Assembly: GCA_948466335.1 (NCBI GenBank)
Contig: CAOKAE010000014.1
Location: forward strand, 1 to 45,301
Source of the DNA: an uncultured Coriobacteriia bacterium
GTDB taxonomy: Bacteria > Actinomycetota > Coriobacteriia > Coriobacteriales > QAMH01
Length of the DNA stretch: 45,301 nucleotides
Direction: 5' to 3'
The position numbers and the translations under genes were made by a program. The notes under the pieces are model-generated. The model did not search any database, was not told the DNA's origin, and saw only the letters and a program-made list of their open reading frames with translations. This document shows positions 2,007-29,010 of this stretch, in pieces; the first letter of the stretch is position 1, and each line of letters opens with the position of its first letter.

Positions 2007-3125
2007 CTACTTCGGCAGTGCCCCCGTGAGCAATTCGCTCAGTTCCGCATCTGTCAGGTCGTAGTCGTACATCGTCTTGTAATAGTCCATCGTGACATCC
2101 TCGATGCTGGTCTTGAAGGCGTCCGGGTACAGGAGTCTCGGCAGCCACTGCATGCCCATGAGCTGGTTCACGGTTGGGGGATTGTTCATCCAGCACCACG
2201 GGTCGTCCGGAACCTGATAGTAGTTGTCGTTGACGATGGCGGCGATGCCCTGCCAGGCGGGGTCGTCTCCCACGCTGTCGTAGATGCTGCCTTTCTGGAA
2301 GATGATGAGCTCGGGATTCCAAACCGCAATCTGCTCGAGGCTGATCTCGTTTCCGTTGCCCTTGCCCGACACGTCATCGACGACGACCACATTGTTCGCG
2401 ACCATGTCGATAACCTGGGCTTGGAATGATGTCTTTGCTATTGCGTTGAGACCGTTATTGCCGAGCAGGTACGCCATGTTGACGCGTTGCGACTCCGGAA
2501 TCGTCTTCATGGTGTCTTCGACTTCCGAGTACACCCGTGTGCAGTATTCGGAGAGCTTGTTACCGCGATCTTCCATGCTCAGGAGTTCGCCAAGGTTCTC
2601 ATAGGCCGCTCCGTAATCGGAGAGCTTCGCCTCGATGAAGATGCAGGGGATGCCCAATTGCTCCTGCAACGCATCCAGGCTTTCCGCCGTGTCCTTCTTC
2701 GCCTCGCCCGTATCTATGATGACCTGCGGCTTGGCGGCTGCCACGGCCTCGCGATTGAAATCATCCTTGGCCCCTAATACGGCACCGAAAATTGGCATGT
2801 CTTTGAATTTCTCGCCGAATATCGCGAGCTGGTCGTCGTTGAGCTCCTGGGAGAGACCGACCATCTTGTCGGGTGCCATCGTGAGCAACACTTGTTGCGC
2901 CGTGTGCCCGGACGGGCAGATCCTCTCCAAGTTGACGGGAATTTCGACCTCGCGCCCGAGCGAATCCGTGAAGACCCTTGTCTTTTCCGAGGCCTTGTCA
3001 GAGCCGCCGCTACCCGACGAGCATCCAGCAAGTGCCACGACTCCCAGACTCAGCGCTGCGACGCACATGAGCGTGAGCATGACCTTTCCAAAGCCCTTGA
3101 CGAGCTTCCCCTTATCGCGTTTCAT
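2007..3125 (-). CDS. Metal-chelate ABC transporter substrate-binding lipoprotein
   Basis: Binding protein of a FecCD-type importer, 372 residues, anchored outside the membrane. A lipoprotein signal ends in the lipobox LAGC with Cys35, followed by a Ser/Gly linker. The mature part shows the two-lobe periplasmic-binding (BtuF/FepB-like) fold: a start with FTDSLGREVEIP, typical of the family, the sequence RICPSGHTAQQVLL, then a middle helix region and WNPELIIFQKGS, which matches the usual 'NPDLII' motif of the second lobe. It is the last gene of the operon permease-ATPase-binding protein and overlaps the ATPase gene by 14 bases, so they are translationally coupled. The ligand could be a siderophore, haem or a corrinoid; the adjacent DUF364 and NTPase genes favour a metal chelate. 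Confidence 0.9.
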   Translation of the reverse strand: MKRDKGKLVKGFGKVMLTLMCVAALSLGVVALAGCSSGSGGSDKASEKTRVFTDSLGREVEIPVNLERICPSGHTAQQVLLTMAPDKMVGLSQELNDDQLAIFGEKFKDMPIFGAVLGAKDDFNREAVAAAKPQVIIDTGEAKKDTAESLDALQEQLGIPCIFIEAKLSDYGAAYENLGELLSMEDRGNKLSEYCTRVYSEVEDTMKTIPESQRVNMAYLLGNNGLNAIAKTSFQAQVIDMVANNVVVVDDVSGKGNGNEISLEQIAVWNPELIIFQKGSIYDSVGDDPAWQGIAAIVNDNYYQVPDDPWCWMNNPPTVNQLMGMQWLPRLLYPDAFKTSIEDVTMDYYKTMYDYDLTDAELSELLTGALPK

Positions 3126-3924
3126 AGTCCATCCTTTCCTGCCGTGCTTCTATTTCGTGCTTGGGCACGCAGATGCGCACCTTATCGCCATAGAGGGAGT
3201 TGACCTCGACATCGACGCTGTAGAGCCCGCTGATGAGCTCGGAGGTGATTACCTCATGAGGGGTGCCATAGGCATCGATGCGCCCGTCTTTGAGGACGAG
3301 GGTTCTGTCGGAGTACAAAAACGCATGGTCGGGGTTATGCGTGGACTGGATGATGGAGAGTCCCTCGTGCGCAAGCTGGCGCACGCAAGAGAGTACGCGC
3401 ACGGTGTTACCGTAGTCGAGTGCGCTCGTGGGTTCGTCCATGACAATGGTGCGGGCGTTTTGGGCAAGCGCACGGGCGATGAGAACGAGTTGTTGTTCAC
3501 CGCCCGAAATCTGCGTGTACATGCGATGGGCGAAGTCGGCGATTCCGATGCGCTCGAGCGCACCGTAGGCCCGTTGCCGCTGCGCTTCGCCGGGATTGGT
3601 CAGCATCTTGAGGTCGCTGCCCGTTGCCATGAGCACGACGTCGACAACCTCGTAGTCGTAGACGGAGGCGTGCGTCTGCGGAATATACGATATCTCGCGG
3701 GCCCGTTCCCTGATTGAAAGCGACTTGATGTCCTTGTCGTTGACGAGGACGCGCCCCGTATAGTGTTGGTTGAGGCCGAGTATGCAGCGAAACAGCGTCG
3801 ACTTTCCCACTCCGTTGGGGCCGAGGACGTTTACGAGCATTCCGTCTGGGATGTCGAAGCTCAGGTCGTGGAGAACCTGCTTGCTGCCGTACGAGAAGCT
3901 CAGGTTTTCGATGGAGATGCTCAT
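3112..3924 (-). CDS. Metal-chelate ABC transporter ATP-binding protein
   Basis: ATPase subunit of a FecCD-type importer, 270 residues, cytoplasmic. Walker A is GPNGVGKS (35-42), the ABC signature SGGEQ (140-144), Walker B VMDEP (161-165) and the H-loop His196; the Q-loop lies in IPQTHA. This is the usual length for the FepC/BtuD class. The ATG at 3924 overlaps the permease stop codon as ATGA, and a purine-rich AAGAAGAAG precedes it. A much longer upstream extension of the frame only covers permease coding sequence and is rejected. The protein should power transport through the permease encoded just before it. Confidence 0.95.
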   Translation of the reverse strand: MSISIENLSFSYGSKQVLHDLSFDIPDGMLVNVLGPNGVGKSTLFRCILGLNQHYTGRVLVNDKDIKSLSIRERAREISYIPQTHASVYDYEVVDVVLMATGSDLKMLTNPGEAQRQRAYGALERIGIADFAHRMYTQISGGEQQLVLIARALAQNARTIVMDEPTSALDYGNTVRVLSCVRQLAHEGLSIIQSTHNPDHAFLYSDRTLVLKDGRIDAYGTPHEVITSELISGLYSVDVEVNSLYGDKVRICVPKHEIEARQERMDYETR

Positions 3925-4982
3925 ATCTTCTTCTTCCGCGTGATGAGGTACAGGAAGAAGGGTGCGCCGACGAAGGCGGTGAGTATGCCGATGGGAATCT
4001 CGGCCGTGGTTGCCAGACGGGCGATATCGTCCACGACTAGCAGAAAGCCGGCGCCCATGAGCATCGATGCGGGGATGAGCTTGCGGTAGTCTGCGCCGAT
4101 GAGCATGCGGCATAGATGCGGAATGACAAGGCCCACCCAGCCGATCATACCGGTGACGGACACGCAAGCTGCCGTAACGAACGTTGCTGCCACGATGACG
4201 ATGACGCGGATGACCCGAGCGTTCACACCCATGGTGGAGGCCTCGTCATCGCCCATGGTCAGGATGTTGATGCGCCAGCGCAGCGCGAACAACACGGCGC
4301 AGCCTATCAGCAGGATGGGGAACACGATGCCCACCTGGCTCATCTTCGCGCCGGTCAGGCTGCCCATGAGCCAGTAGGTGATGTCAGCCAGCTCGTCGTT
4401 GTTAGGGTCGGCGATGAGCTTGGTATAGGAGACGCCGGCTTGGAAGAGGGAGCTGACCATGACGCCGGCAAGCACCACCACCATCATGTGGTTTCCCTTG
4501 GCCCGCGAGCTGATGAGTAGCACGAGGAACACCGTGAACAGGGACATGAAGAACGCCGACACCGACACCATGGCGCCAGTAAATCCTGCCAGGATGGCCA
4601 GGGCGGCTCCAAAGGCGGCTCCTTGGCTGGCGCCCAGTATATCGGGTGAGACGAGCGGGTTCTGGAACGTGCCCTGGTAGGCGGCGCCGGCTACGGACAG
4701 GCAACAACCTACCATCAGGGCCAGCAGAATGCGCGGTAGTCGCACGTTGAAGAACAGGGTGGCCTGCTGGTCGGTCCAGGATTGCTCGATAGGCACGACG
4801 CAGTTTACGAGCATCTCGATGGCCTGGATTGGGTCGATGGGGTAGCGACCAAGCAGGAGCGAGATGCCGACGATCACGACAACGCCGATGGCGAGGCCGG
4901 TGATGATGGCATTGGCGCGTCGTGCCGAATGTGACAGGCTCTTGTGAGACAAGCCTGTTCCTGAGTGGGAAATCTCATTCAT
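3921..4982 (-). CDS. FecCD-family ABC transporter permease
   Basis: Membrane subunit of the importer, 353 residues, about ten predicted membrane helices, matching BtuC/FepD length. Typical family segments are visible: RLPRILLALMVGCCLSVAGAAYQGTFQNPLVSPDILG split over residues 84-120, and near the end GLVIPHLCRMLIGADYRKLIP, which carries the ATPase-coupling loop, then a terminal EIPIGILTAFVGAPFF. AAGGAT lies 7 bases before the ATG at 4982. It is the first gene of the operon. Its upstream region is short and AT-rich with a TATAAT box and holds no B12 box, so this transporter is not under the cobalamin riboswitch type seen at 15.5 kb. Confidence 0.93.
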   Translation of the reverse strand: MNEISHSGTGLSHKSLSHSARRANAIITGLAIGVVVIVGISLLLGRYPIDPIQAIEMLVNCVVPIEQSWTDQQATLFFNVRLPRILLALMVGCCLSVAGAAYQGTFQNPLVSPDILGASQGAAFGAALAILAGFTGAMVSVSAFFMSLFTVFLVLLISSRAKGNHMMVVVLAGVMVSSLFQAGVSYTKLIADPNNDELADITYWLMGSLTGAKMSQVGIVFPILLIGCAVLFALRWRINILTMGDDEASTMGVNARVIRVIVIVAATFVTAACVSVTGMIGWVGLVIPHLCRMLIGADYRKLIPASMLMGAGFLLVVDDIARLATTAEIPIGILTAFVGAPFFLYLITRKKKI

Positions 4983-6587: not shown

Positions 6588-7814
6588 TTACGCGCCTACC
6601 GTTATCTCGGCGGCGCGGTTGCCGCCGGCCTCGGATGTCTGCAAGCGTTTGCGGCCGGCCACGAGCGACACGCAGGCGAGCGCCAACGCGAAGAGCAGCA
6701 GTACGCCGATGTGCCCGAAGACGGTCTGGAAGGCTGCGGCATCTGACGCATGCGCGGCAATGGAGCATGCCGTCGCGTACCAGTAGCCCGGAAGCCCATG
6801 GGCGAGCGTGGCGACTTCGGGCGAGAGCAGGTCGAGGGATATCCATGCGCCGCCGAAGAACGAGATGACCATGCCGACGATGTTACCCGCCGCATTGCAG
6901 ACGATGGAGCTTGCGCCGAGCTGGCCGAGCAACAGGCCGAATGTGAGCGGCACGCAGCAGAACGCGAGCATGCTCAGCGCGCAGAGGACGAGCCCGACGG
7001 GGCCGATTTGGGCGGCGGCCTCGGAGAACACCACGAGTCCCAGGCAGAAGGTCCACGCCCAGGCGACGAGCGTCACGACCGCGCATGCGGCGGCAAGCTG
7101 CACGTTGTAGGCGACGAAGCTCAAGGGCGACGAGAGGTTGCGTCGCCGCACGTCGACGCGGCCCAGGGTCGTGACGAGCAGTCCTACACACACAGTGATG
7201 CCGGCAAAGAGCGTGTAGGTACTCCATTGCAGGTAGAACACGAAGCGGTCGGCTTCGGAAACGGACGCGCTGCTTTCGACCACGCTTACGTCGGCGCGTT
7301 CGTCTGCAAACGTCGATGCCTCTTCCACTGCCTGCGCGATCGAGGCGTCCGGCTTGGCAACCAGCAGCGTGCGCACCATGCCCAGAAAGCCGTTCACTCC
7401 CTGGTCGACGAACTCTCCCTCCATGGAGTAGAAGCTGAACACGGTTTCCATGACGGGGCTTTCCTCGCCATCACGTGCCGCCTCGACGAAGGCGTTCTCG
7501 AAGCCCTCGGGGATGATGAGCAGGTAGTCGACCTGTCCCTTCGCCACGGCATCTTGGATCTGGCGCGTGTTGTCTTCGATGGCGATGGCGTTGCCTTCGG
7601 CATGCAGGCGGTCTTCGACGGCGGCGGATAGCTCGCTTTGGTCACGGTCGATGACGGCGAAGTCATAGGCGGGGCGCTCGAAATCGCCACCGGGATTTCC
7701 GAAGCTGAATGACATCGCCATGAACAGGCCCATGAAGCTCAAGCCCACGATGTAAATCAAGGGGAAGGCGATGTTGCCGCGGATGATGCGCATGGCGCAC
7801 TTAAAGACTTGCAT
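6588..7814 (-). CDS. ABC-2 type transporter permease (second)
   Basis: Membrane subunit of an ABC exporter, 408 residues. One N-terminal membrane helix (about 13-35) is followed by a roughly 170-residue extracytoplasmic domain with FAVIDRDQSELSAAVEDRL, then about five C-terminal helices from residue 205. This is the ABC-2/YhgE-like topology used for exporting drugs, peptides or glycans. ATG at 7814 has GAGGAGG 5 bases upstream. It overlaps the first permease gene by 14 bases and should pair with it as a heterodimer. The stop codon lies 1 base from hairpin repeat A. Substrate unknown. Confidence 0.88.
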   Translation of the reverse strand: MQVFKCAMRIIRGNIAFPLIYIVGLSFMGLFMAMSFSFGNPGGDFERPAYDFAVIDRDQSELSAAVEDRLHAEGNAIAIEDNTRQIQDAVAKGQVDYLLIIPEGFENAFVEAARDGEESPVMETVFSFYSMEGEFVDQGVNGFLGMVRTLLVAKPDASIAQAVEEASTFADERADVSVVESSASVSEADRFVFYLQWSTYTLFAGITVCVGLLVTTLGRVDVRRRNLSSPLSFVAYNVQLAAACAVVTLVAWAWTFCLGLVVFSEAAAQIGPVGLVLCALSMLAFCCVPLTFGLLLGQLGASSIVCNAAGNIVGMVISFFGGAWISLDLLSPEVATLAHGLPGYWYATACSIAAHASDAAAFQTVFGHIGVLLLFALALACVSLVAGRKRLQTSEAGGNRAAEITVGA

Positions 7815-9012
7815 AGCGCCTCCTCTTCAGCGAGCGGGCGGACAGGGCAAAGAGGATGAGCGCCATGACGAGCAAGATGCCCAGGTGCTCCATGAGGGGT
7901 AGGAGCGTGTCATAGTACATGACGCTGTAGAAGGCCTGCGCGATCTGCGCGGCGGGGTTCACGAGTTCGACCACGGGGAAGTCGCGCGCGATCATGTCGG
8001 CGAGTTCCATCGTCGGCTGGCCGTAGAGACCGGCAAACAACGATGCGAAGCAGACGACGCCCGTGAGTATGCCGCTCTTGCCGCTTTCGGGAACGTGGGG
8101 TATGGCCGAGATGGCGCTTCCGAGTGCAGTCGCGGTGAGGGCCGCGAAGGCTGCTACCAACAGGCATTCGAAGTCATGATCTCCAAAGCTCACGTTGGCC
8201 ACGTAACGGATGTAGAGATAGGTGATGAAGAGGCACGCGAAGGTGATGATCCAGCTTCCGAGAATGGTCGCCGCGACCGCGCGCCCGTGGGGCGTGGCGC
8301 CGACGGCGCGCCGCGCGCCAAGGGCGGAGGTGTTGGGCTTCATCCTCTGGAGGGCCACGAGGCCGAGCGAGCCGCCGAAGAGTGCCGCCATGCCGAGCAG
8401 CGCGAAGTAGAAGCGCACGCTCTCCTTGGGCTGGTTGGGCGTGACCGTGGTCTGCACGGTGGCTTGCAGCGGCTCGAGCATCGTGTCCATGATGCGAGCG
8501 CCCGCGGGGCCGGCAAGCATCATGGGGTCTTCTGCCACGAGCTCCTTGATCATGGCGCTGTTGGCAACGTAGGTGTCCATCGCCATGACGAGAATGGAGG
8601 AGTTGATTTTCTCGACCCCGCCCGTGGATGCGGCGCCGACCACATGCACCTCGGGTTCGCCGTCTACGAGCTCGATATAGCCGACGCACGGGTTTTCGCC
8701 GTTGGCCGTATCCTCTATGAGCTGCATGGCCTCCGTGGGGCTCGCGACGGTCGTGATTGCGAACAAGGTATCTTGGCCGTCCTCGTCTTTGCTCATGGCT
8801 TGCAAGAAGGCGTCGAACGCCTGGTCATCGGCGGTCTCTCCGGACTGCACGACCGCGACCGGAATGGGGTCGAGCTGGTTTCCCATCTCGTCGATTGGGC
8901 CGAACATCATCATGAAGACGGTCGAGAGGATGAGGGGAAAGCCGAGCGCCCACACGAGCACGCCAGGCATGCGCAGCAGGTCGAGCACCGTGTATTTGAA
9001 AGTGTTCCACAT
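7801..9012 (-). CDS. ABC-2 type transporter permease (first)
   Basis: Membrane subunit of 403 residues with the same layout as its downstream partner: one N-terminal helix (about 14-36), a large extracytoplasmic part (DPIPVAVVQSGE onward, to about residue 205), then five helices and a basic end KRRRYASL. The two permeases are clearly related paralogs, which supports a heterodimeric exporter. It lies 12 bases after the ATPase gene. Substrate is not readable; neighbouring LuxR regulation suggests an inducible export function. Confidence 0.88.
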   Translation of the reverse strand: MWNTFKYTVLDLLRMPGVLVWALGFPLILSTVFMMMFGPIDEMGNQLDPIPVAVVQSGETADDQAFDAFLQAMSKDEDGQDTLFAITTVASPTEAMQLIEDTANGENPCVGYIELVDGEPEVHVVGAASTGGVEKINSSILVMAMDTYVANSAMIKELVAEDPMMLAGPAGARIMDTMLEPLQATVQTTVTPNQPKESVRFYFALLGMAALFGGSLGLVALQRMKPNTSALGARRAVGATPHGRAVAATILGSWIITFACLFITYLYIRYVANVSFGDHDFECLLVAAFAALTATALGSAISAIPHVPESGKSGILTGVVCFASLFAGLYGQPTMELADMIARDFPVVELVNPAAQIAQAFYSVMYYDTLLPLMEHLGILLVMALILFALSARSLKRRRYASL

Positions 9013-9024
9013 GGACGTTGCCCC

Positions 9025-9960
9025 CTAGTCGCGCAGCTCGCGGCCGGTGATTTCGAGGAACACGTCGTTGAGCGTCGGTGGCTCTGCCCAGATGCGACCG
9101 GGGCGAATGCGCGCCTTCGTAAGCTCGTCGAGCACATCGGCGACGTTATGCTCGCCGTTTTCGCAGGTGATGGAGAGGCTGCCGTCGTCATAGGTTGCGG
9201 TGAGCACGTGGGGGAGTGACCGGATGCGCAGAAGCGCGGCTTCGGGCACGTCGGCTTCGATGATGATCTTCTCGCCGGCGGCGACGAGCTGCTTGAGCTC
9301 TTCGTTCGTGCCGCATGCGAGCGTGCGCCCCTTGTCCATGATCATGATGCGCGTGCAGATCTCCTCGACTTCCTCCATGTAGTGACTCGTGTAGACGATG
9401 GTCGAGCCGTCGGCGTTCATTTGCTTGATGCCGTCGAGGATGGAGGCGCGGCTCTGCGGGTCGACCGCCACCGTGGGCTCGTCGAAGAAGACGAGCTCGG
9501 GCTTGTGGGCGATGCCGCAGGCGATGTTGAGGCGGCGCAGCAAGCCGCCCGAGAGCTTCTTGGGAACCGCCTTCTCGTAATCCTCGAGGCCGACGAATTC
9601 GATGGCCTCGCGCACGAGCTTCTTGCGGCTTGCGCTGTCGCTCACGTACAGGCCACAGAAGTAGTCGATGTTCTCGCGTACGGTGAGCTCTTCGAACACG
9701 GCGACGTTTTGCGGGACGACGCCGATGCGGCGCTTGAGATCGTAGCTCGTCTGGGTCATGGGCTGGCCGAAGAGGCGGATTTCGCCACGGTCGTAGGTGA
9801 GGAGTTGCAAGATGCAATTGATGGCGGTGGTCTTGCCACTGCCGTTGGGGCCGAGCAGGCCGAAGACCTCTCCGCGCTCTATTTCCATGTTGAAGTGGTC
9901 GAGGGCGAGAGCGCTTCCATAGCGCTTGACCAGATCGACTACCGAAACGATGTCGTGCAT
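9025..9960 (-). CDS. ABC exporter ATP-binding protein
   Basis: Cytoplasmic ATPase of 311 residues for the two ABC-2 permeases encoded downstream. Walker [10 protein letters not shown] (37-45), signature LSGGLLRRL, Walker B LVFFDEP and a switch His in TSHYMEE are all present. The signature's [10 protein letters not shown] form and a C-terminal domain of about 90 residues are typical of the CcmA/DrrA-like class that drives ABC-2 exporters. The ATG at 9960 is preferred because GGGAG lies 6 bases upstream; an in-frame ATG at 9966 would be too close to it. It is the first gene of a three-gene operon divergent from the membrane LuxR gene. Confidence 0.93.
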
Positions 9961-10032
9961 GTTCATCTCCCGATGCGTCCTTGGGTGTTCGCGAGCAGCC
10001 CCATTTAAGCTTGCGGGGCGCGGAGTGTAAAC

Positions 10033-10046
10033 ATGACATTTGTCAT
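10033..10046. promoter_or_regulatory. Dyad ATGACA-TT-TGTCAT, candidate operator
   Basis: Perfect 6-bp arms with a two-base spacer lie in the 168-base gap between the ABC exporter operon and the LuxR gene. On the minus strand it stands just upstream of a TACACT box (10024-10029). It is a plausible binding site for the adjacent LuxR protein. Confidence 0.4.
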
Positions 10047-10116
10047 TGATGAACATATCCGCTGGTCAGAGCGCTTCCGAATGCGAACGTGTTGCATGGC
10101 GTCGTCTTCGGGACGG

Positions 10117-10122
10117 TATAAT
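10117..10122 (+). promoter_or_regulatory. -10 box, leaderless start of the LuxR gene
   Basis: TATAAT ends six bases before the ATG at 10129, so transcription would begin at or next to the start codon. A TTGCAT at 10092-10097 could be a -35, with a long spacer of 19. Confidence 0.5.
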
Positions 10123-10128
10123 CACGGC

Positions 10129-10848
10129 ATGGAAGAATACGTCGACGAAATCATCTTGCTCGTCGCCTGCGTGGCGGCATCGGTCCTCTTTGCCGATGCG
10201 AATCTCATAGTCGTTGGCGTGCTGCTCTCCATATCGCTCGTGTGCGCGTGCGGCATGGCAGGGCCCCCGTACCGCATCGCCGCACAGATCGCCTTTCTTG
10301 TCTGCGCACTCGTTCTCGTTCCCGCCTTCTTCTTTCTGCCGGTCTGCGTGTATGTCATGCTGCATGAGCGCCACTGGGCGCTACGCCTTCTCTGGCTCGT
10401 TCCGCTTGTGGTCATGCCCTTTCTGGGCATGGTCTCGTCGCCGGGATATGCAGTCGTCGCCCTTACCTGCGTGCTTTCGGTGTTGCTGGGTATCAAGGAT
10501 GCGCGCATGCGGGCAGAGCGCGCGGGCATGCAGTTCGCGTTCGACGATTTGCGCGAACGCAACCTCAAATTGCTTGCCGAGTGCGAGGAAGCGGGCGCAT
10601 CGGGTGTGAAGACGAACGCTGGATCGCGTTCAGACGATAATCGTGCCCAGGCCGTAGGCCCGTTCTGCAATCTCACGGATCGCGAGTATGCCGTGGCCAA
10701 GCTTGTGGCCGAGGGCATGGACAATCGTGATATCGCGGCGACGCTCTTTCTCTCGGAAGGCACCGTACGCAATCACATCAGCTCGATTCTGAACAAGCTC
10801 GAACTGGGCAATCGCACCCAGATTGCGGTGCTGTACTACAAGGGCTGA
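10129..10848 (+). CDS. Membrane-anchored LuxR-family regulator
   Basis: Transcription regulator of 239 residues. The N-terminal 120 residues form about five hydrophobic membrane segments (8-23, 25-41, 48-77, 83-100, 105-121); a charged linker of about 55 residues follows, then a GerE/LuxR helix-turn-helix (180-236) with LTDREYAVAKLVAEGMDNRD and the recognition helix SEGTVRNHISSILNKL. Membrane LuxR regulators of this design are abundant in Coriobacteriia. It probably senses a membrane or hydrophobic signal and controls the divergent ABC exporter; the dyad at 10033-10046 is a candidate site. There is no Shine-Dalgarno before the ATG, but a -10 box lies right before it. Confidence 0.88.
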   Translation: MEEYVDEIILLVACVAASVLFADANLIVVGVLLSISLVCACGMAGPPYRIAAQIAFLVCALVLVPAFFFLPVCVYVMLHERHWALRLLWLVPLVVMPFLGMVSSPGYAVVALTCVLSVLLGIKDARMRAERAGMQFAFDDLRERNLKLLAECEEAGASGVKTNAGSRSDDNRAQAVGPFCNLTDREYAVAKLVAEGMDNRDIAATLFLSEGTVRNHISSILNKLELGNRTQIAVLYYKG

Positions 10849-10853
10849 GCCAG

Positions 10854-10874
10854 GGCGCTACGTAACGTAGCGCC
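10854..10874. terminator. Hairpin between convergent LuxR and DUF4430 genes
   Basis: A 9-bp GC-rich perfect stem (10854-10862 with 10866-10874) and a TAA loop lie between convergent genes and overlap the last codons of the minus-strand gene. It has no T-tail; it may act on both strands. Confidence 0.4.
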
Positions 10875-11481
10875 ACACCAGCGAATCGCCGGAACTCAAC
10901 ACGTAGCTCGACGCGCCCGTCATGGGCATCGTGCCGTTGACGGTGTAGGTCCATCCGCTCGATCCGCCCATCACCTTCTCGGCCAGGCCGTTGACCGCCG
11001 ACACGTAGGACGGTGAACCGGAAAGCGAGAGGCCCGTGGCGACCAGGGCATCGTAGGCGCTCGAGCCCGTGGGTAGTTCCATGGTGCCCGTGGCCATGGC
11101 GGCAGGGTAGCCCAGGCTCTGGGCCGCCGAGCTGTCCACGAGGATGCTTATGCGTACGGTGGAGCTCGACGCATCCGTCGCGGGGTCGGCATCGGCATGG
11201 GCGGCATTGCCTTGCTGTGGCTCGGTCGCGGTGCCCGCGCTGGCCGACGGGTTGGCGTTTGCGCCGCTCTGGGAGCCGCCTTCCCCTGGTAGTGCGGTCG
11301 ATGTGCTCGGGTCCTGCGCCGTGGCGGAAGAGACGACGCTGGTGCTCGGCTCCTGCGCGTCCGGCTGCGGCGCCTGCGGGGCGCCGGTGAGCGCGAAGAC
11401 CAGGCAGCAGATCGAGACGACGCCCAGGACGACGCCGGTGACGATGCGCTTCTTGGCGGCGCTTGTTCGGCGTCTAGTCAT
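10858..11481 (-). CDS. Membrane-anchored DUF4430 protein, putative corrinoid binding
   Basis: Surface protein of 207 residues. A basic N-terminus (TRRRTSAAKKR) and one hydrophobic segment (14-32) anchor or export it; a Ser/Thr/Pro/Gln-rich flexible linker of about 70 residues follows. The C-terminal 100 residues form a DUF4430 domain with the typical order: VRISILVDSS, ELPTGSSAYDALVATG, SYVSAVNGLAEK, SGWTYTVNG and a final LSSGDSLVWRYV. DUF4430 resembles the C-terminal domain of transcobalamin. Its gene overlaps the large surface protein gene by 8 bases with GGAGGAGG just before the ATG, so both are made from the cobalamin-riboswitch transcript. Binding of cobalamin or another corrinoid outside the cell is my inference. 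Confidence 0.88.
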   Translation of the reverse strand: MTRRRTSAAKKRIVTGVVLGVVSICCLVFALTGAPQAPQPDAQEPSTSVVSSATAQDPSTSTALPGEGGSQSGANANPSASAGTATEPQQGNAAHADADPATDASSSTVRISILVDSSAAQSLGYPAAMATGTMELPTGSSAYDALVATGLSLSGSPSYVSAVNGLAEKVMGGSSGWTYTVNGTMPMTGASSYVLSSGDSLVWRYVT

Positions 11482-14400
11482 GGGACCTCCTCCTCAACCC
11501 CGAGATGACGAGCGCCAGGGCAATGACGAGGCCGATGATCGAGATCCAGAGGAGGGCGGAATTGGTTGCCCCGGCTGGCATGTCGTCCTTCTCGGTACTG
11601 CCGTCCGTAGCTGCGTCCTGTGCCGGGCTGGCAGCTGGCACGGCTTGCTGGGCGGTGGCAGGAGGCGCCGTGAGGACGATGGTTCCCATGGCGGGTGCCT
11701 GGGGCAGGCTCGTCTGGGTTCTGGACGCCATGGGCGTGTCGTCACTCGGCGAAAGAAGCTCTTCGGGCGGATTCGCCGGGGTGTTGGGGTTATTCGGGAC
11801 GACCGGCTTGGCGGGATCGTCGGGTTCGATGGGGTCAATCGGCTTTGGGTCATCCGATGCGGTGGCAAGCTTCAGGGCAAACAGGTTTCCCGAATCGTTG
11901 ACATAGTAGAAACGGCCGTTTGCGTAGGCCAGCGATGCCATGGAGTAGTTGTGCATCCCCGCGGGCGGGTCGAAGGCAAGGGAGGCGTGGGTGTCGCCCA
12001 GGCGATAGGCGTACACGCCGCCACCGCCCGTGTAATCGGGGTAGGTGCCGGTGGCTCCGTTGCAGGTGAACAGCGCCATCACGCCGTTTTGGTCGCGCAC
12101 GAGGATGGGCGTGCTCTTGACCTCGCCGGGAAACGCCGCATCCTGCGTCGCGTCGACGACGCTCAGCGGCTTCATGGTGCTGGCGTCGATGACGGCGAGG
12201 ATTCCGCGGCCGTCCTTGCTGCCGCCCACGTAGATGATTCCGTCGGCTATGGAGGGGCTGGAGGTCGAGTAGTCGCCGAAGGCGAGCGAGGCCACCTCGC
12301 GCGGCTGCCCGTCGCTTCCGACGGCAATCTTGTGCAGGACGCCGTTGGTGGTGACGACGTAGGCGTATCCGTCGGCCGAGACGACGGTGGAGCGCACGGC
12401 GCAGCCAAGGTCGAGCGCGCCTGCCGCGATGCCAGCGGGGGAGTCAGTGGAGATCGACTCCACGCGACCGTCATCGCCCGCGACGAGCATGAAGCCGTTG
12501 AGTTGCGCCGCACCGGCCCAATAGTAGCCGGCTGTCTTGTTCTCGCGAACCCAGCGGATTGCACCCGTGTTCACGTCCACGCACAGCGCATAGCCGCCAT
12601 AGGTCTGCGACCAATCGGCCTCGGCGGTGAACGCGTAGAGGTTGTCGCCGCTCACGGTGATGGTGGAGAGCGATTGCTGGGAGTACGAGACGAGCTGGCC
12701 GCCACCGGGGCTCTCTATCGTCCGGTCGGGCAATGCGGCGGTGAGCCACCGGGTCTGCAAGCCTAGGGCCGAGACGGCCTGCAGGCGGCCGTTATCGAGG
12801 GGCACGATTACCATGCCCCGGGCATAGACGGGACGGCACCCATAGGCGGTGGAGGCGGCAAGGGTGGTGGAGCCAATGACGCTACCCGTCTGGGCATCGA
12901 GCTTCAGTAGCTTGTTGCCCGATGTCAAAAAGACGAAGCCACCCGCGACGACGGGCTCCGACCAGGACGCGAACGCGCCTCGCGCGTAATCGTAGGTCCA
13001 GCTGCCCTCGAGTCCGGCAACGGACGTCTCGACCTCGACGGGCTTGCCAGTACCCGAGCCAAAGGTGGCCCAGTCCGCCTCCCAATCCGCCACGGGCGCG
13101 TCGGGATCCACGGGAATCACCGGCTTTTCCAGCGTGCCCGAGGCATCGACGTAGACCAGTTCGAGCACGTCGCCGTCCTTGGGGTAGTAGCCGCTGGGCA
13201 TCGAGCTCGCGTATTCCCCGTTGATGAGGAAGGACCAGTACGACCAGGGTGCGCTCGAGCTCATCGCCAAGGTCTGGGTCCGGTCGGGAGAGGTGATGGA
13301 GTAGGGGCATCCGCCGTTGAGGTTGTAGAAGTACCCGGCAGCATCAAGCTGCGCGGCAAAGAGGTCCCAGGCCGAGAGGCGCGCCGAAGAGCTCACGCTG
13401 CGACTGGTGAGGGGGATCCAATCCATCTGCTGGTAGGCCGCACCGGGCCCATGGGGCGTGACGCCCACGACGCGCAGGGAGACGTCCAGCATGACGGGTT
13501 GCTCCGGGCCGACGGGATCCACGGGCTCGACTGGCTGGGTGCCCTCGCCCAGGGCGATGGCCTTTCGCATGGGGCCGGCCTCCATGACATTGAAGCCCGC
13601 GTCCACGCGGCATTTGAGGTACTTGCCGGCGTAGGAATCGGGAATGACGAAGGAGGTTTTGTGAGCGTTGCCATCGGCGAGCTCGGTGTAGGTGCCGTCG
13701 AAGCTGTCCGAGACGAGCCAGGTGCAGTTGAGCTGGCTGGCGTCAAGGTAGGCGCCGGCCGTGCCCGCCGCGGTCGCCTCGCGGGCCGTGACGCCAATGG
13801 TGCGACCGGTCCAGAACGTGAACGTGTCATCCTCGGGCGTCTGGCTTAGGGCAGCGTATATGAGTTCGTGGGAGCCGGGCTTTCTAAAGGGCCCCGCCGC
13901 GGAGCTATTCGAGGAGGCGACGGTGTTGTCGCCGGCATAGGCGGTGACGCTTATCCAGCAGCCTTCCAGGTAATCGGGCACGACGAGCTCGGGGCCCGTC
14001 ACGCCCTCGATGACGTGCCACCGGGAATCGTCGAAGCTGGACGTGGGCTTTTCGCTCGTCCAGCGCCAGGTATAGGTGACGTCGTTGGTGACGGGGGAGT
14101 TGTCCCAATAGTCGCCCTTATAGGCCTGGGCCACGAGCTTGGAGCCCAGGGTCTTCACGGACGAGGCGTTGAGAATCTCGACGCGATAGAGGTTGGTGAC
14201 GCCTGCGGGAAGCACGGTCCCCACGGGCGATTCGCAGGTGTCGTGTCCCTCGACGCCACTCTTGGCCGTGGCGACGACCTTCAGGAACTTGCCCGAGAGA
14301 CTTTCGCCCACCGTGAGCGTCGCCCCCGTGGCCACTTCGGCAAAGGGACCGTCAGCCGAGCTGGCGGCCTGCCAGGAGAAGTCGACCTTGGTGGCGTCGT

Positions 14401-15439
14401 AGAGCGTGTAGGGGTCGTCCATGTCGTAGGCCGCCGCCTCGAGGGTATCGCCGACGTTGCAATCGGGCGCGTCCTCGAGGGAATCCCCAAAGCCAGCGCC
14501 GTTCTTGGATATGAGGACGTGGTCGAGTTTTATTTGCTCGGGCGTGACGATGGGCGCGACGATGAACCCACAGGCTGTCAGGGTTGTGTACTTGGTGGCT
14601 GCCTTGGGACCTTCCACAGACGTATCCGCATTGCTTATGCAAACGCGCAAGTATTTACCATCGAACTGCGTTCTGAAACTATCGGTTAACTGCAAGGTTG
14701 AACTTGTCTGCCCTGCTATGGGCTGGAAGTCATTAGCCTTTTTGCCCGATCCATATAACCACTGGTAGGACCATGTACCATCATCATCTACATGTTCCTT
14801 GCCCGAAGTCCACGCATGGGCATAGAGCGTCTCGTCCTTATCGAGCATGGTTGCCGAATAGGGTGCGGGAGAGGACGGGGTCTGATGTTGCGAGATGCTG
14901 GCGAAGCTCGCATCGGCTAAGGTCAGGCCTGTCGCCTGGGGCGCGATTTGGGCATCAGGCTCCTGCGCTGCCTTTGCCACGCTCTCGCGTACCATCTGAA
15001 GCAGGCTCTGGGTTGCATCGTCCTGCCCCGAGGCATCCTCAGTCGCCTCGTCCTTATCGACGGGGTCGGCCTGCGTGTCATCCTCGTCCTTGGTGGCGCT
15101 GGGAGCAGGGGGCTCATCTTTCGGCTCGTTTTCTGTGAGCGCAGCATCCTTGGATGTGGAGGCGTCATCAACATCGACATCGGGGTTCGGCGATGCGGGA
15201 GCCTCCTCTTCCTGTGCCGGAGTGTCGGGTGCCTCGGGGACGGTTGGCGTCACCACTTCTTTGTCAGCGGGCATCTCCTCGGCAATGGACGTTACCTCGT
15301 TTGCTTCGGGCGGCTCTGATGCCCAGATTGACATGGGCGCAAGGGAGCTCACCAACGCGAAGCTCAGCAGGAGGGAGAGGAGCGTCATGGGACGCGAGGA
15401 GCGCACGCCTTTGCGGCGCGCATAAAACCGTCTGCTCAT
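11474..15439 (-). CDS. Large surface protein: Ig-like modules, DUF4430, PQQ-like propeller
   Basis: Exported protein of 1321 residues (ATG at 15439; an in-frame GTG at 15448 is less well placed for AGGTG). Order of parts: signal peptide (1-40), acidic Pro-rich low-complexity stretch (41-165), about four Ig-like modules (170-630) with recurring GKYLRV, GKFLKV and GKYLKC strands, a DUF4430 domain (about 650-767) with WSFLINGEYAS and YPKDGDVLELVYV, a PQQ-like beta-propeller (about 800-1195) with repeated GGFVFLTSGNKLLKLDAQTG-type blades, a Pro-rich linker (1197-1290), one membrane helix (about 1294-1315) and a basic tail RRRSHD. It is therefore anchored at its C-terminus and faces outside. The cobalamin riboswitch in its leader indicates production under corrinoid shortage; capture of corrinoids, perhaps from a macromolecular carrier, is inferred. 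An alternative is an adhesin. Confidence 0.9.
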   Translation of the reverse strand: MSRRFYARRKGVRSSRPMTLLSLLLSFALVSSLAPMSIWASEPPEANEVTSIAEEMPADKEVVTPTVPEAPDTPAQEEEAPASPNPDVDVDDASTSKDAALTENEPKDEPPAPSATKDEDDTQADPVDKDEATEDASGQDDATQSLLQMVRESVAKAAQEPDAQIAPQATGLTLADASFASISQHQTPSSPAPYSATMLDKDETLYAHAWTSGKEHVDDDGTWSYQWLYGSGKKANDFQPIAGQTSSTLQLTDSFRTQFDGKYLRVCISNADTSVEGPKAATKYTTLTACGFIVAPIVTPEQIKLDHVLISKNGAGFGDSLEDAPDCNVGDTLEAAAYDMDDPYTLYDATKVDFSWQAASSADGPFAEVATGATLTVGESLSGKFLKVVATAKSGVEGHDTCESPVGTVLPAGVTNLYRVEILNASSVKTLGSKLVAQAYKGDYWDNSPVTNDVTYTWRWTSEKPTSSFDDSRWHVIEGVTGPELVVPDYLEGCWISVTAYAGDNTVASSNSSAAGPFRKPGSHELIYAALSQTPEDDTFTFWTGRTIGVTAREATAAGTAGAYLDASQLNCTWLVSDSFDGTYTELADGNAHKTSFVIPDSYAGKYLKCRVDAGFNVMEAGPMRKAIALGEGTQPVEPVDPVGPEQPVMLDVSLRVVGVTPHGPGAAYQQMDWIPLTSRSVSSSARLSAWDLFAAQLDAAGYFYNLNGGCPYSITSPDRTQTLAMSSSAPWSYWSFLINGEYASSMPSGYYPKDGDVLELVYVDASGTLEKPVIPVDPDAPVADWEADWATFGSGTGKPVEVETSVAGLEGSWTYDYARGAFASWSEPVVAGGFVFLTSGNKLLKLDAQTGSVIGSTTLAASTAYGCRPVYARGMVIVPLDNGRLQAVSALGLQTRWLTAALPDRTIESPGGGQLVSYSQQSLSTITVSGDNLYAFTAEADWSQTYGGYALCVDVNTGAIRWVRENKTAGYYWAGAAQLNGFMLVAGDDGRVESISTDSPAGIAAGALDLGCAVRSTVVSADGYAYVVTTNGVLHKIAVGSDGQPREVASLAFGDYSTSSPSIADGIIYVGGSKDGRGILAVIDASTMKPLSVVDATQDAAFPGEVKSTPILVRDQNGVMALFTCNGATGTYPDYTGGGGVYAYRLGDTHASLAFDPPAGMHNYSMASLAYANGRFYYVNDSGNLFALKLATASDDPKPIDPIEPDDPAKPVVPNNPNTPANPPEELLSPSDDTPMASRTQTSLPQAPAMGTIVLTAPPATAQQAVPAASPAQDAATDGSTEKDDMPAGATNSALLWISIIGLVIALALVISGLRRRSHD

Positions 15440-15469
15440 GCAGAACACCTACTTCCAGGGCTATCGTGC

Positions 15470-15663
15470 AACGGGCAGGTATTCCGACTTTGCCTCGTCT
15501 GAGGTGCCTGACGCGCAACCGTCATCGAGCGTATCGCCCGAGACGGCACCCCATCGGCTCATACGGTTCCTGGTAGAGCGGGGGATTCGCACCCCCATTC
15601 CCCTCAGTCGAAAAGCGCCCTGCTCTTCGACCGGCGCGATGCCTCGCGCAACCCATCAAGGCC
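15470..15663 (-). promoter_or_regulatory. Cobalamin riboswitch
   Basis: The leader of the large surface-protein gene holds a good B12 box on the minus strand, AGTCGGAATACCTGCC (15474-15489), preceded by AA and a GAGGC segment. About 100 bases upstream in the RNA is the conserved core GGGGAATGGGGGTGCGAATC with its pairing CCCCC, the usual GGGAA...GGTG...AATCCC element of this riboswitch class, and a GAGCCGATGGGG region lies between. The B12 box sits 35 bases before the ATG at 15439, close enough to the weak ribosome site that control of translation is likely. The 5' limit is estimated from a -10 box at 15673-15678. Confidence 0.87.
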
Positions 15664-15672
15664 AATGAGGGG

Positions 15673-15678
15673 AGTATA
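15673..15678 (-). promoter_or_regulatory. -10 box of the riboswitch transcript
   Basis: TATACT on the minus strand just upstream of the riboswitch. Transcription would start near 15666, which gives the RNA the full aptamer. The -35 is not clear. Confidence 0.45.
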
Positions 15679-24802: not shown

Positions 24803-25846
24803 CTAGCCGATGTCAGCTTCGCTTACCCTGCCCCTGAAGGTGCGATAGATGATGACATGGTAGACGAGCACGAGGGGCAGGCCGATGCACAGAATGACCG
24901 TCATGCAGAACAGCGAGAGCTCGCTCGACCCGGCGCTCATGATCGTGATGGCTGCACCCACGCTATCTGCGCTTGCGTTGACGAGCACGGGAAAGAGGCT
25001 TGCCGCACCGAGGAAGACGAGGAACAGCGCAGCAGAGCTCTGCGTGAGGAAAGCCCATAGGTCGCCCTTTGTGGACGAGGCATCTTTGCGTCCGATAACG
25101 AGCGACGCGATGACGCCGACCAGGAAGAGCGCGGCGAGTATCCACTGCAGGGCAGCGAGGTGCTCGGGCGGGGTGTTCACGCTGCCGAAGCCCGTCAGGA
25201 CGCAAATCGTGAGCAGGACGAACAGGACGATCGAGACAACCTGGGCAGGCATGCGGATGGCCTGCACGCGGGTACGCAGCTCGGAGTTCAAGGGCGCCTT
25301 GAGGGAGAGCCAGCATGCACCTGCAGCGATGAACATGCTCAAGCCGAGCACGCCGGTGAGCAGCGTGAACGGCGTGATGAGCCCGAGCAGGGGCACGCCC
25401 GCATAATTGCCGGCCATGTCCATGGGGATGCCAGCGACCACGTTGCCCGCGGCAACGCCGAAGAGCAGCGCGGGCAAGAGCGAGCCCAGGAAGAAGCAGA
25501 CGTTCCAGACAGGGCGCCATTTGGAGTCGGCAGCCCAGAACTCGAAGCTGACGGCGCGCACGATGAGCGCGAAGAGCACGAGCATGATGGCGAGATAGAA
25601 GCCGCTGAACGTGGTGGCGTACGCATCGGGGAAGGCGGCGAACAAGGCACCACCTGCGGTGAGCAGCCAGACTTCGTTGCCGTCCCATACGGGTCCGAGC
25701 GCACGGCGGACAATCGCCTGTTCACGCTCGTTCTTGGCGACGAACGGATACAGCGTGCCTGCGCCGAGGTCAAAGCCATCGAGCACGAAATAGCCCGCGA
25801 TGAGCAGGAATACCAGGAAGTACCAGAGAGTCGAGAGGATAGTCAT
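24803..25846 (-). CDS. cydB: Cytochrome bd oxidase subunit II
   Basis: Integral membrane subunit of cytochrome bd quinol oxidase, 347 residues, about eight or nine helices. Family segments are LWYFLVFLLIAGYFVLDGFDLG at the N-terminus, with the DGFDLG motif, and GPVWDGNEVWLLTAGGALFAAFP, the most conserved stretch of CydB. It starts 2 bases after cydA ends, and its ribosome site GAGGAGG lies inside the last codons of cydA. Together with CydA it reduces oxygen to water using menaquinol, giving low-oxygen respiration or oxygen protection to an otherwise anaerobic cell. Confidence 0.96.
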   Translation of the reverse strand: MTILSTLWYFLVFLLIAGYFVLDGFDLGAGTLYPFVAKNEREQAIVRRALGPVWDGNEVWLLTAGGALFAAFPDAYATTFSGFYLAIMLVLFALIVRAVSFEFWAADSKWRPVWNVCFFLGSLLPALLFGVAAGNVVAGIPMDMAGNYAGVPLLGLITPFTLLTGVLGLSMFIAAGACWLSLKAPLNSELRTRVQAIRMPAQVVSIVLFVLLTICVLTGFGSVNTPPEHLAALQWILAALFLVGVIASLVIGRKDASSTKGDLWAFLTQSSAALFLVFLGAASLFPVLVNASADSVGAAITIMSAGSSELSLFCMTVILCIGLPLVLVYHVIIYRTFRGRVSEADIG

Positions 25847-25848
25847 GT

Positions 25849-27264
25849 TTACTCAACCTCCTCAGCGTCGACGCGCGTCTCCGCCTTGGCGGGCTCAACG
25901 GGGCCCTCCTTCACGAAGCGCCTGATGACGCGTGCCCAGCCCACGAACAGGAGCAGGTAGACGGCAAAGAACAGAACGAGCGAGATGAGGACCTCGAAGG
26001 ACTGCACCGAGGCGCTCACGCCATCGCTCGTGAGCATGAACACGCCGTCAGGGCCAGTCGTTGACGGATACACGACATAGGGCTGACGACCGACCTCTGC
26101 CGTGAGCCAACCGGTTTGGATGGCCAGAAACGGGAACAGGGGTGAGATGACGAGCAGCCACTGCAGGAAGCGGCTCTTGGCAAGGCCCTTGCCCTCTGCG
26201 ACCAGCTTCTTGCGCCCGAAGATGAGCGCAAGGATGAGCACGAGGCATATGACGCCGAACATGGCGACCATGATGTGATAGACCTGGAACACGAAGTTCA
26301 CGGGCATTTCGTCGACGTTGATGTCCGCATACTTCTCGCTTGCGACGAGGTCATTGAGGCCCGGATATTCGGCATCGAAATTGCCTTCGGCGAGAAAGCC
26401 CGTGCCTCCGGGTATGCCGAGCGCAAACGTCTCCTGCGTTGCCTCATCGACGAAACCGATGGCGGCAAGCTCGACCGTGCCCGTCTCGTACTGACCTTCC
26501 ATCATGGCCATTTTGGTGGGCTGCTCTTCCCATACCTCGACTGCCGAAGAGTGCGCTGCAACGAGCAGCAGGGCCACGGAGATGACACCCACGATGGAAC
26601 CTATGCGCAGCATCTTTTGCGCGGCGTCGGCATAGGTGCCCTTGTGCATGTACCACGCGGCAACGGCGATGGTCACGAACGATCCCATGACAAGCAGGCT
26701 GAAGACGGTGTGCGCATAGCGCGGCAGGGTGGAGGGATTGAAGGCGGCCGCGAAGAAATCGGTGATGACGGCACTTGAGCCATCGGCGGAAAGCACGGCG
26801 CCCGCGGGAGTCTGCATCCAGCTGTTGGCGATGATGATCCACAGCGCGCTGAGCGCAGAACCCGCAAAGACGAGCCACGCGCTTGCCACATAGAGCGACG
26901 GTTTTATCTTGTTACGGCCAAAGAGCAGCATTCCGAGGAAGATCGACTCCAAGAAGAAGGCGAAAAGTGCCTCGGCCGCAAGCGGCGCGCCGAAGATGTC
27001 GCCCACGAAACGCGAATACGCCGCCCAGTTGGTGCCGAACGAGAATTCCATCGTGATGCCGGTGGCAACGCCGATGGCAAAGGTTCCGGTGAAGATCTTC
27101 ACCCACATACGCGCGAGCGCGTCGTCCTCAGGTAGCTTGGAGCGATAGGCCTTCGTCACGAAGATCGCCATGATGAGACCTATGCCGATGGTTATGGGTA
27201 CGAAAATGAAATGGTACCCGGCCGTGAAGGCGAACTGCATACGCGCCAACAATACTTGGTCCAC
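25849..27264 (-). CDS. cydA: Cytochrome bd oxidase subunit I
   Basis: Haem-bearing subunit, 471 residues, about nine helices. Key residues visible: His of AGYHFIF (position 18, haem b595 ligand region), RMQFAF start, EFSFGTNW with the conserved Glu, PTKMAMMEGQYET as the Q-loop, and GRQPYVVYP in place of the usual GRQPW. The Q-loop is the short type found in Gram-positives. Start GTG at 27264 has GAGAGGAG 5-6 bases upstream. Haem b558, b595 and d sites are expected; I do not verify each ligand. It is divergent from cydDC, the assembly transporter genes. Confidence 0.96.
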   Translation of the reverse strand: MDQVLLARMQFAFTAGYHFIFVPITIGIGLIMAIFVTKAYRSKLPEDDALARMWVKIFTGTFAIGVATGITMEFSFGTNWAAYSRFVGDIFGAPLAAEALFAFFLESIFLGMLLFGRNKIKPSLYVASAWLVFAGSALSALWIIIANSWMQTPAGAVLSADGSSAVITDFFAAAFNPSTLPRYAHTVFSLLVMGSFVTIAVAAWYMHKGTYADAAQKMLRIGSIVGVISVALLLVAAHSSAVEVWEEQPTKMAMMEGQYETGTVELAAIGFVDEATQETFALGIPGGTGFLAEGNFDAEYPGLNDLVASEKYADINVDEMPVNFVFQVYHIMVAMFGVICLVLILALIFGRKKLVAEGKGLAKSRFLQWLLVISPLFPFLAIQTGWLTAEVGRQPYVVYPSTTGPDGVFMLTSDGVSASVQSFEVLISLVLFFAVYLLLFVGWARVIRRFVKEGPVEPAKAETRVDAEEVE

Positions 27265-27399: not shown

Positions 27400-29010
27400 A
27401 TGAGGGCGATGTTTGACAGACAGCTTCTTCAGGTCGAGGGAATGCGGCGCTTGGTGGCCCTGTGCATCGCATGCGCGCTCGCAAAGGCAGCGGCGATACT
27501 CGGGCAGGCGCTGTTCTTGAGCCGTGCGATCGTGATGCTTTGGGAGGGCTCCCCATTTGAGGCGGCCGTACCGTGTGTTGCCTTCTTTGTGCTCTGCTTC
27601 ATGGCGAGGCACGGCATCAGCACCGGTCAGGAAGCTTATATCGACTCGTTCGCGGCACGGGCGAGCAATGCCATGCTCTACAGGCTCTTGAATGCCGCCT
27701 TCGATGCGGGCCCCGTGCTCGTGCGCCAGGCGGGATCTGCTGCCGTCGTGGCGAACGCCGTCGACGGCATGACCGATATCGAGGAGTATCTGCGGCTGGT
27801 CGTCGCGCGAGGCGTCGACATGGTCGTGATACCCATCGTCTTGCTCGTCGCCATCTTCGCTCTCGACATAGTGAGCGGCATCATCGCGCTGGTGTGCTAT
27901 CCCTTCGCCATCATCTTCATGCGCCTCATCGGGCTCACGGCCAAAGAGCGCGCAAATCGCCAGCATGCACATTTCGAGCGCATGTCGAATGCCTTCGTGA
28001 ACATAGCCGGCGGCGTGGCCACGCTCAAGGCCTTTGGGGCGGCGCGCCGCTTTGCCTCGCGCATCAACGAGGTGAGCGAACGATTCCGCGTGGCGACCAT
28101 GAAGACGCTTTCCGTCGCCATGCTCTCGAGCGCCGTGCTCGACCTGTTTGCCACGCTTGCACTTGCCGCTGTCGCCATCATGCTGGGTTTTCGCATGGTG
28201 GAGGAGTCGGTCATGTTCTTTCCCGCGTTGGCAGTGCTGGTCTTGGTGCCCGAGTACTTCAAGCCCATACGCGATTTTGGCGGCGACTATCACTCCACGC
28301 TCAACGGGCGTACCGCCCTTGCCGCAGTGAACGCGTTCATGGAGCAGGCCTGTGACCCCTGCGTGCATGCAAGCTCGTTTTGGCCCGAAGGCGTTTCATG
28401 GGCCAAGCGCCTGGATATCGACACGCGGGTTCCCGGGACGACCGTCATCTTCGGCCCCAGCGGCGCGGGAAAGACCACGCTGCTGAACGTGATCGCAGGG
28501 TTCAACGACCCACCCCAAGATGTCGAGGTCGCAGTCGATGGTGTGGCGGTTCCCACCTTGCGCACCAGGGAGTGGCAGCGCCGTGTCGCCTACATTCCGC
28601 AGGCTCCGTACCTGTTTTGCGCCACCTTGCGCGAGAACCTCGCCTTCTACAACCATGAGGCAAATGATGAGGATATGGCTCGTGCGCTTGCCGCCGTCGG
28701 GCTCGAGGGCCTGATGGCGACCTTGCCCGAGGGTCTGGATACGCGCTTGGGCGAGGGGGGACGCGCGGTGTCCGGTGGACAGGCCCAGCGCATCGCCCTG
28801 TGTCGCGCGCTGCTCGACCCCGCGCGCGATGTCTGGGTGCTCGACGAGCCGACGGCCCACCTCGACGAGCAAACCGAACGCGACGTGCGTGAGCTGCTGT
28901 GCTCGCTCATGCAAGGCAAGACAGCGTTTGTCGCCACCCATGGCACCGTGTGGGAAGAGGGCGCGGACGTGATCGTGCGCATTGACGCGGCCGGGGGCGA
29001 GGCCTCATGA
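27400..29010 (+). CDS. cydD: CydD-type ABC transporter for cytochrome bd assembly
   Basis: Fused membrane/ATPase half-transporter of 536 residues. Six helices make up the first 300 residues; the ATPase part has Walker A GPSGAGKTT (352-360), Q-loop IPQAPYLF, signature VSGGQAQRIALCRALL and Walker B VWVLDEP, with the H-loop in VATHGT. CydDC exports thiols or handles haem, and is needed for assembly of cytochrome bd. It overlaps cydC by 4 bases (ATGA). The ATG at 27400 has no ribosome site and a -10 box lies just upstream, so translation may be leaderless; a Met three codons later is an alternative. Confidence 0.92.
   Translation: MRAMFDRQLLQVEGMRRLVALCIACALAKAAAILGQALFLSRAIVMLWEGSPFEAAVPCVAFFVLCFMARHGISTGQEAYIDSFAARASNAMLYRLLNAAFDAGPVLVRQAGSAAVVANAVDGMTDIEEYLRLVVARGVDMVVIPIVLLVAIFALDIVSGIIALVCYPFAIIFMRLIGLTAKERANRQHAHFERMSNAFVNIAGGVATLKAFGAARRFASRINEVSERFRVATMKTLSVAMLSSAVLDLFATLALAAVAIMLGFRMVEESVMFFPALAVLVLVPEYFKPIRDFGGDYHSTLNGRTALAAVNAFMEQACDPCVHASSFWPEGVSWAKRLDIDTRVPGTTVIFGPSGAGKTTLLNVIAGFNDPPQDVEVAVDGVAVPTLRTREWQRRVAYIPQAPYLFCATLRENLAFYNHEANDEDMARALAAVGLEGLMATLPEGLDTRLGEGGRAVSGGQAQRIALCRALLDPARDVWVLDEPTAHLDEQTERDVRELLCSLMQGKTAFVATHGTVWEEGADVIVRIDAAGGEAS

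Follow-up and report, generated by a model that had tools for sequence, protein, structure and literature searches.

A two-gene operon on the minus strand of the 45,301-nucleotide stretch of Coriobacteriia DNA analysed here (the window) very probably encodes a vitamin B12 (corrinoid) scavenging system, in which proteins predicted from sequence and structural models to lie at the cell surface would capture corrinoids for an importer encoded elsewhere in the genome. At low intracellular cobalamin the leader RNA would allow translation, the long surface protein (protein 1) would catch corrinoid within the cell wall or outside it, and short-tethered DUF4430 proteins would deliver it to a CbrT-like S-component in the membrane; once imported, the corrinoid would serve at least methionine synthase and then shut the leader. 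The genome contains a MetH-like gene (B12-dependent methionine synthase) and CbiC was not found in it, which together fit a scavenger, although the assembly is 97% complete and the absence of CbiC alone is no proof of auxotrophy. Gut communities are shaped by competition for B12, and Bacteroides is the group in which surface capture is understood best. The locus and its relatives define a regulated group of candidate surface proteins for B12 binding in Gram-positive-type gut bacteria, and they point to a likely function for DUF4430, a domain still listed as unknown.

The operon spans positions 10858–15663, where the preliminary description had placed it, and is followed by a convergent LuxR-type gene (10033–10848), so that it consists of two genes. 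Protein 1 (P0001, 1321 aa; 11474–15439, minus strand, ATG at 15439) is composed of a signal-like N-terminus, a long N-terminal region with no Pfam match, a DUF4430 domain, a beta-propeller, a Pro-rich linker and, as read from the sequence, one transmembrane stretch at the C-terminus with an RRRSHD tail after it. Protein 2 (P0002, 207 aa; 10858–11481, minus strand) has an N-terminal transmembrane stretch, a low-complexity linker and a C-terminal DUF4430 domain. Its ATG at 11481 overlaps the stop codon of protein 1 by 8 nt, with GAGGAGGAGG just upstream. Both the C-terminal anchoring of a 1321-residue surface protein and the N-terminal anchoring and translational coupling of a second one, as proposed in the preliminary description, were therefore recovered. 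The proposal that both proteins carry DUF4430 held for protein 2 (55.4 bits, above the Pfam cut-off), while the corresponding match in protein 1 (residues ~650–765) stayed below threshold (16.2 bits, cut-off 23.8), with the same region passing the cut-off in most relatives.

The preliminary description overlooked the beta-propeller of protein 1, an 8-bladed propeller of the BamB type at residues ~790–1192 (PQQ_2, 32 bits; confident model). The core formed by DUF4430 and the propeller (11840–13489, minus strand) was modeled using AlphaFold2 with a mean pLDDT of 94.8 and a pTM of 0.91, and its best PDB folds were BamB and other 8-bladed PQQ-type propellers, with YxaL and quinoprotein dehydrogenases also among the top matches. 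Relatives of protein 1 reach 1700–2300 aa (e.g., L031, 6993–12062; L036, 7814–14719), and in several of them DUF4430 occurs in two or three copies ahead of the propeller. The comparison with BtuG drawn previously survives for the role, as both systems would be riboswitch-linked, surface-exposed beta-propellers capturing corrinoid for an importer. BtuG2 of Bacteroides is a 7-bladed lipoprotein propeller that works with the TonB-dependent BtuB at the outer membrane (PMC6143338), whereas the propeller described here is 8-bladed, BamB-type and transmembrane-anchored, and would be paired with an ECF transporter in a Gram-positive-type envelope. Homology to BtuG was rejected, as sequence and fold searches returned BamB/PQQ-type propellers and BtuG2 (3DSM) was not among the best 50 structural matches of the core.

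Corrinoid may be bound by DUF4430 alone, with the propeller and the N-terminal region merely tethering protein 1 to cell-wall or host glycans, a plausible version to which we assign somewhat less than an even chance and which is a refinement of the scavenging reading rather than its opposite. BamB/PQQ-type propellers have multiple roles, none of those matched best by the core (BamB, YxaL, quinoprotein dehydrogenases) binds corrinoids, and tethering by fused domains has been proposed before (Burroughs et al. 2007, PMC1796856). Nevertheless, conservation within protein 1 is highest in the propeller, where numerous glycine and aromatic positions are invariant (GYYW motif included), and DUF4430 and the propeller were modeled as one confident unit. 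For the scavenging system as a whole we can offer a tentative and rather doubtful mechanism, namely that the propeller replaces the alpha-toroid of transcobalamin, such that corrinoid would be held between DUF4430 and the propeller and then relayed via ever shorter-tethered DUF4430 proteins to the CbrT-like S-component. If both sandwich and relay were true, a Gram-positive counterpart of BtuG-BtuB would have evolved independently and spread across gut Coriobacteriia and Clostridia.

The PDB was searched with a structural model of the protein 2 DUF4430 domain (pLDDT 92.5). Transcobalamin, haptocorrin and intrinsic factor accounted for 17 of the 19 matches at E ≤ 0.001 (TM 0.65–0.74 by query length, E ~1e-4), and the remaining two were chains of 3u7z, a bacterial protein of the same fold that is annotated as a putative metal-binding protein. 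The protein 2 model thus has the fold of the transcobalamin beta domain, in agreement with the likeness to the C-terminal domain of transcobalamin claimed in the preliminary description. A profile of the protein 1 core matched transcobalamin-2 weakly (E 0.52), within its DUF4430 part. Compared with transcobalamin, intrinsic factor and haptocorrin, the predicted fold of DUF4430 corresponds to the beta domain of these carriers, while their alpha/alpha toroid is absent here; protein 1 has the 8-bladed propeller and protein 2 presents DUF4430 alone on a membrane tether. From the fold, the riboswitch and the transporter linkage, we infer that DUF4430 binds corrinoids. It is quite unlikely that the proteins bind not free corrinoid but the corrinoid carriers of a host (intrinsic factor, haptocorrin) or those made by other bacteria. 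The relatives belong to gut-type lineages (Collinsella, Eggerthella, Gordonibacter, Slackia, Adlercreutzia, Olsenella and Clostridia), and Bacteroides BtuG2 takes B12 from intrinsic factor (PMC6143338), but DUF4430 is similar to the half of the carriers that binds the ligand, and not to the receptors of the carriers.

The operon contains no transporter, as was pointed out previously, and a candidate partner was located elsewhere in the genome. Apart from the operon, the same genome has a single DUF4430 gene above threshold and a single convincing aptamer, both at the same place on contig C12, where the aptamer is followed by genes for a DUF4430 lipoprotein (lipobox LALAGC), EcfT (CbiQ family), a fused EcfAA' and EcfS, with CbiQ and ABC family matches for EcfT and EcfA. 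A profile of nine S-components (A6), representing the family of the C12 operon and its relatives, matched ECF-CbrT (6FNP) in the PDB with an E-value of 1e-15, compared to 0.41 for RibU. ECF-CbrT is a proven B12 importer of Lactobacillus delbrueckii with a solved structure (6FNP, PMC5997447). Contig C12 therefore encodes a CbrT-homologous S-component together with EcfT and EcfA, i.e., a CbrT-type ECF transporter under a second riboswitch. It differs from ECF-CbrT in having its own dedicated EcfT, a fused EcfAA' and DUF4430 proteins at the surface; the CbrT paper (PMC5997447) makes no mention of DUF4430. It is very unlikely that the proteins bind cobalt or a different tetrapyrrole or vitamin (heme, riboflavin), with the riboswitch link reflecting cross-regulation. 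The C12 EcfS does score 59 bits for the Pfam riboflavin S-component family, and 3u7z with its metal-binding annotation shares the fold, but the S-component profile prefers CbrT by far, a cobalamin riboswitch recurs at these loci across two phyla, and the fold is that of the B12 carriers.

The window itself also encodes a FecCD-type ABC importer set (binding protein, ATPase and permease; 2007–4982, minus strand), which may serve as a second importer, for corrinoids or siderophores; the best NCBIfam match of its permease was the BtuC model (239 bits, cut-off 461). It was rejected as partner of the operon, as only distance ties the two, RF01689 identified no aptamer at these genes and an unrelated exporter operon lies between them. 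The latter encodes an ABC-2 type exporter (DrrA-like ATPase and two permeases; 6588–10056, minus strand), divergent from the LuxR-type regulator at 10033–10848 (plus strand). Further away, cytochrome bd oxidase subunits I and II (24803–27264, minus strand) are located beside two divergent ABC transporter genes (27400–30722) that may be CydDC-like.

No loci were returned when whole protein 1 was used as query for relatives, and a profile of the conserved core identified 191 related loci in public genomes. Eighty of these were kept (mostly Coriobacteriia, some Clostridia), 70 of which had enough downstream sequence for neighbor counts. A small DUF4430 gene was present downstream in 69 of the 70 loci, and in 34 of the 70 the propeller gene, the small DUF4430 gene and a full EcfT-A-S set occurred in one stretch. 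Adjacent ECF genes were mostly absent in Collinsella. One further genome (G049) shows the same split as the genome of the window, with a separate stretch of aptamer, DUF4430 lipoprotein, EcfT and EcfA. When 60 genomes of the order were examined, that of the window included, the propeller-protein family was found in 25; EcfS was present in 22 of these 25 and in 19 of the 35 genomes lacking the propeller protein, counts that are uncorrected for kinship. Two genomes (G031 and G035; loci L049 and L050) encode a propeller protein without detectable DUF4430 or C12-type EcfS, which may reflect a switch to another ligand or partner.

A transcobalamin-like clade in bacteria was described by Burroughs et al. 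(2007, PMC1796856), who computationally predicted a role in B12 scavenging and noted a beta-propeller fusion in a Clostridium protein, as well as operons with a second paralogous SLBB protein and CbiO/CbiQ-type transporter genes. The present system shares with that prediction the secreted or anchored DUF4430/SLBB domains, the propeller fusion, the second paralogue and the CbiO/CbiQ-type genes. New here are the cobalamin riboswitch, the CbrT-like S-component and the occurrence in Actinomycetota (Coriobacteriia), and the transporter is split off to a separate locus that has a riboswitch and a DUF4430 lipoprotein of its own. The scavenger idea is thus not categorically new; what is added is the riboswitch, the link to CbrT, the actinobacterial spread and the split operon. 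The regulatory and transporter links make the 2007 prediction much firmer and, with candidate proteins that share the fold of the human B12 carriers, it becomes directly testable. No experimental follow-up on DUF4430 was found in the openly accessible papers searched.

The leader RNA (15427–15668, minus strand; fold z-score −3.4) comprises a cobalamin riboswitch aptamer and an expression platform, consistent with the riboswitch and B12 box that the preliminary description had placed before the large surface-protein gene. A covariance model (R1) built from 13 relatives, with both the window and the C12 locus left out, matched 15427–15674 (minus strand) with 68.1 bits (E 4.8e-17) and also recovered the C12 aptamer (E 1e-19). 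R1 matches of 11–13 bits (window position 30730, L148 and L146 minus strand) were regarded as noise. The Rfam check proposed previously gave a divided result. RF01689 (AdoCbl-II) matched at 15545–15603 (minus strand) with 32.1 bits (E 8e-6 in a 401-base scan; cut-off 36.5 bits) and RF00174 did not match the window leader, such that no member of Rfam clan CL00101 was assigned to the leader at its gathering score, formally the outcome that the preliminary description had named as evidence against a riboswitch; the leave-one-out match to R1 argues in its favor. RF00174 was also not found in the rest of the genome, and a third RF01689 candidate (C6:36761, 17.7 bits) was left as a chance match.

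R1 and the pair counts show a conserved core, a B12 box and covarying P2–P5 in the leader. Among 17 aligned aptamers, standard pairs occupied 275 of 289 P2–P5 cells with 25 extra pair types, compared to means of 233 paired cells and 15.8 extra pair types after column shuffling; none of 2000 shuffles reached either observed value, a figure that is not a probability because the P2, P3, P4 and P5 pairs were placed by hand and eye on the same 17 sequences and kinship was ignored. The leave-one-out match to R1 is the cleaner test. The 17 leaders have 29 invariant columns in common. The 5' arm of P2 (GAUGGG, 15652–15657) pairs with CCCGUU (15470–15475), with compensatory changes among the 17 aptamers, and this 3' arm together with the B12-box region AAGUCGGAAUACCUGCC (15470–15490) supplies the 3' strands of P6, P3 and P2; the B12-box region itself reads AAGTCGGAATACCTGCC (15490–15474, minus strand). 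The L5 loop region (ACCAG, 15570–15574) is complementary to an L13-like CUGG (15455–15458) that runs into the Shine-Dalgarno stretch (GGAAGUAGGUG, 15446–15458), 6 nt before the start codon, and both CCAG and CUGG, the latter followed by a purine-rich stretch, were conserved in all 17 aptamers inspected. An L5-L13 kissing loop controls translation in this riboswitch class, and complementarity suggests that L5 and CUGG form such a contact here. Overlap of the cobalamin riboswitch with the ribosome-binding region was shown computationally. In the thermodynamic fold of the unliganded state, the Shine-Dalgarno region is paired to the B12 box, and the sole terminator-like site (15431–15444) overlaps the start codon. 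As folding gives no decision between OFF and ON, an OFF switch is assumed from knowledge of the class. Decay or loss of function of the aptamer is very unlikely, since the sub-threshold RF01689 score, a long P6 extension and the pairing of Shine-Dalgarno region and B12 box are offset by intact core columns that are invariant in relatives, a fully paired P2 and a P5 altered on both sides (UCU/GGA for UAU/GUA) with pairing preserved.

The aptamer family recurs in relatives of the operon. R1 identified an aptamer at E ≤ 1e-12 in 50 of the 80 relatives, in all 50 upstream of the gene and on its strand. RF01689 was found at 12 places in the other 24 genomes with the propeller-protein family; nine of these sites immediately precede the propeller gene, one (G002) precedes a DUF4430 reading frame adjacent to that gene, and two precede cbi genes. 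Aptamers in four relatives' genomes passed the RF01689 cut-off and five related loci passed that of RF00174; clostridial relatives and one Atopobiaceae relative carry a canonical RF00174 upstream (74–88 bits). An Rfam scan of two Atopobiaceae-type relatives (L108 and L139) recognized no aptamer. These two loci count against the capture reading, as do the sub-threshold DUF4430 of protein 1, the weak core match to transcobalamin-2 and the two genomes with a propeller protein but no detectable DUF4430 or C12-type EcfS. In one genome (G014, L064) the same aptamer family is located at ~1436–1690, directly before cbiL and cbiD, i.e., a B12-biosynthesis operon. In another (G009, L060) it occurs at ~1454–1664 before a gene for the cobalt chelatase CbiK, whose lipoprotein-like signal suggests an extracytoplasmic chelatase or binder. 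The positions before cbiL-cbiD and cbiK tie the aptamer family to corrin metabolism.
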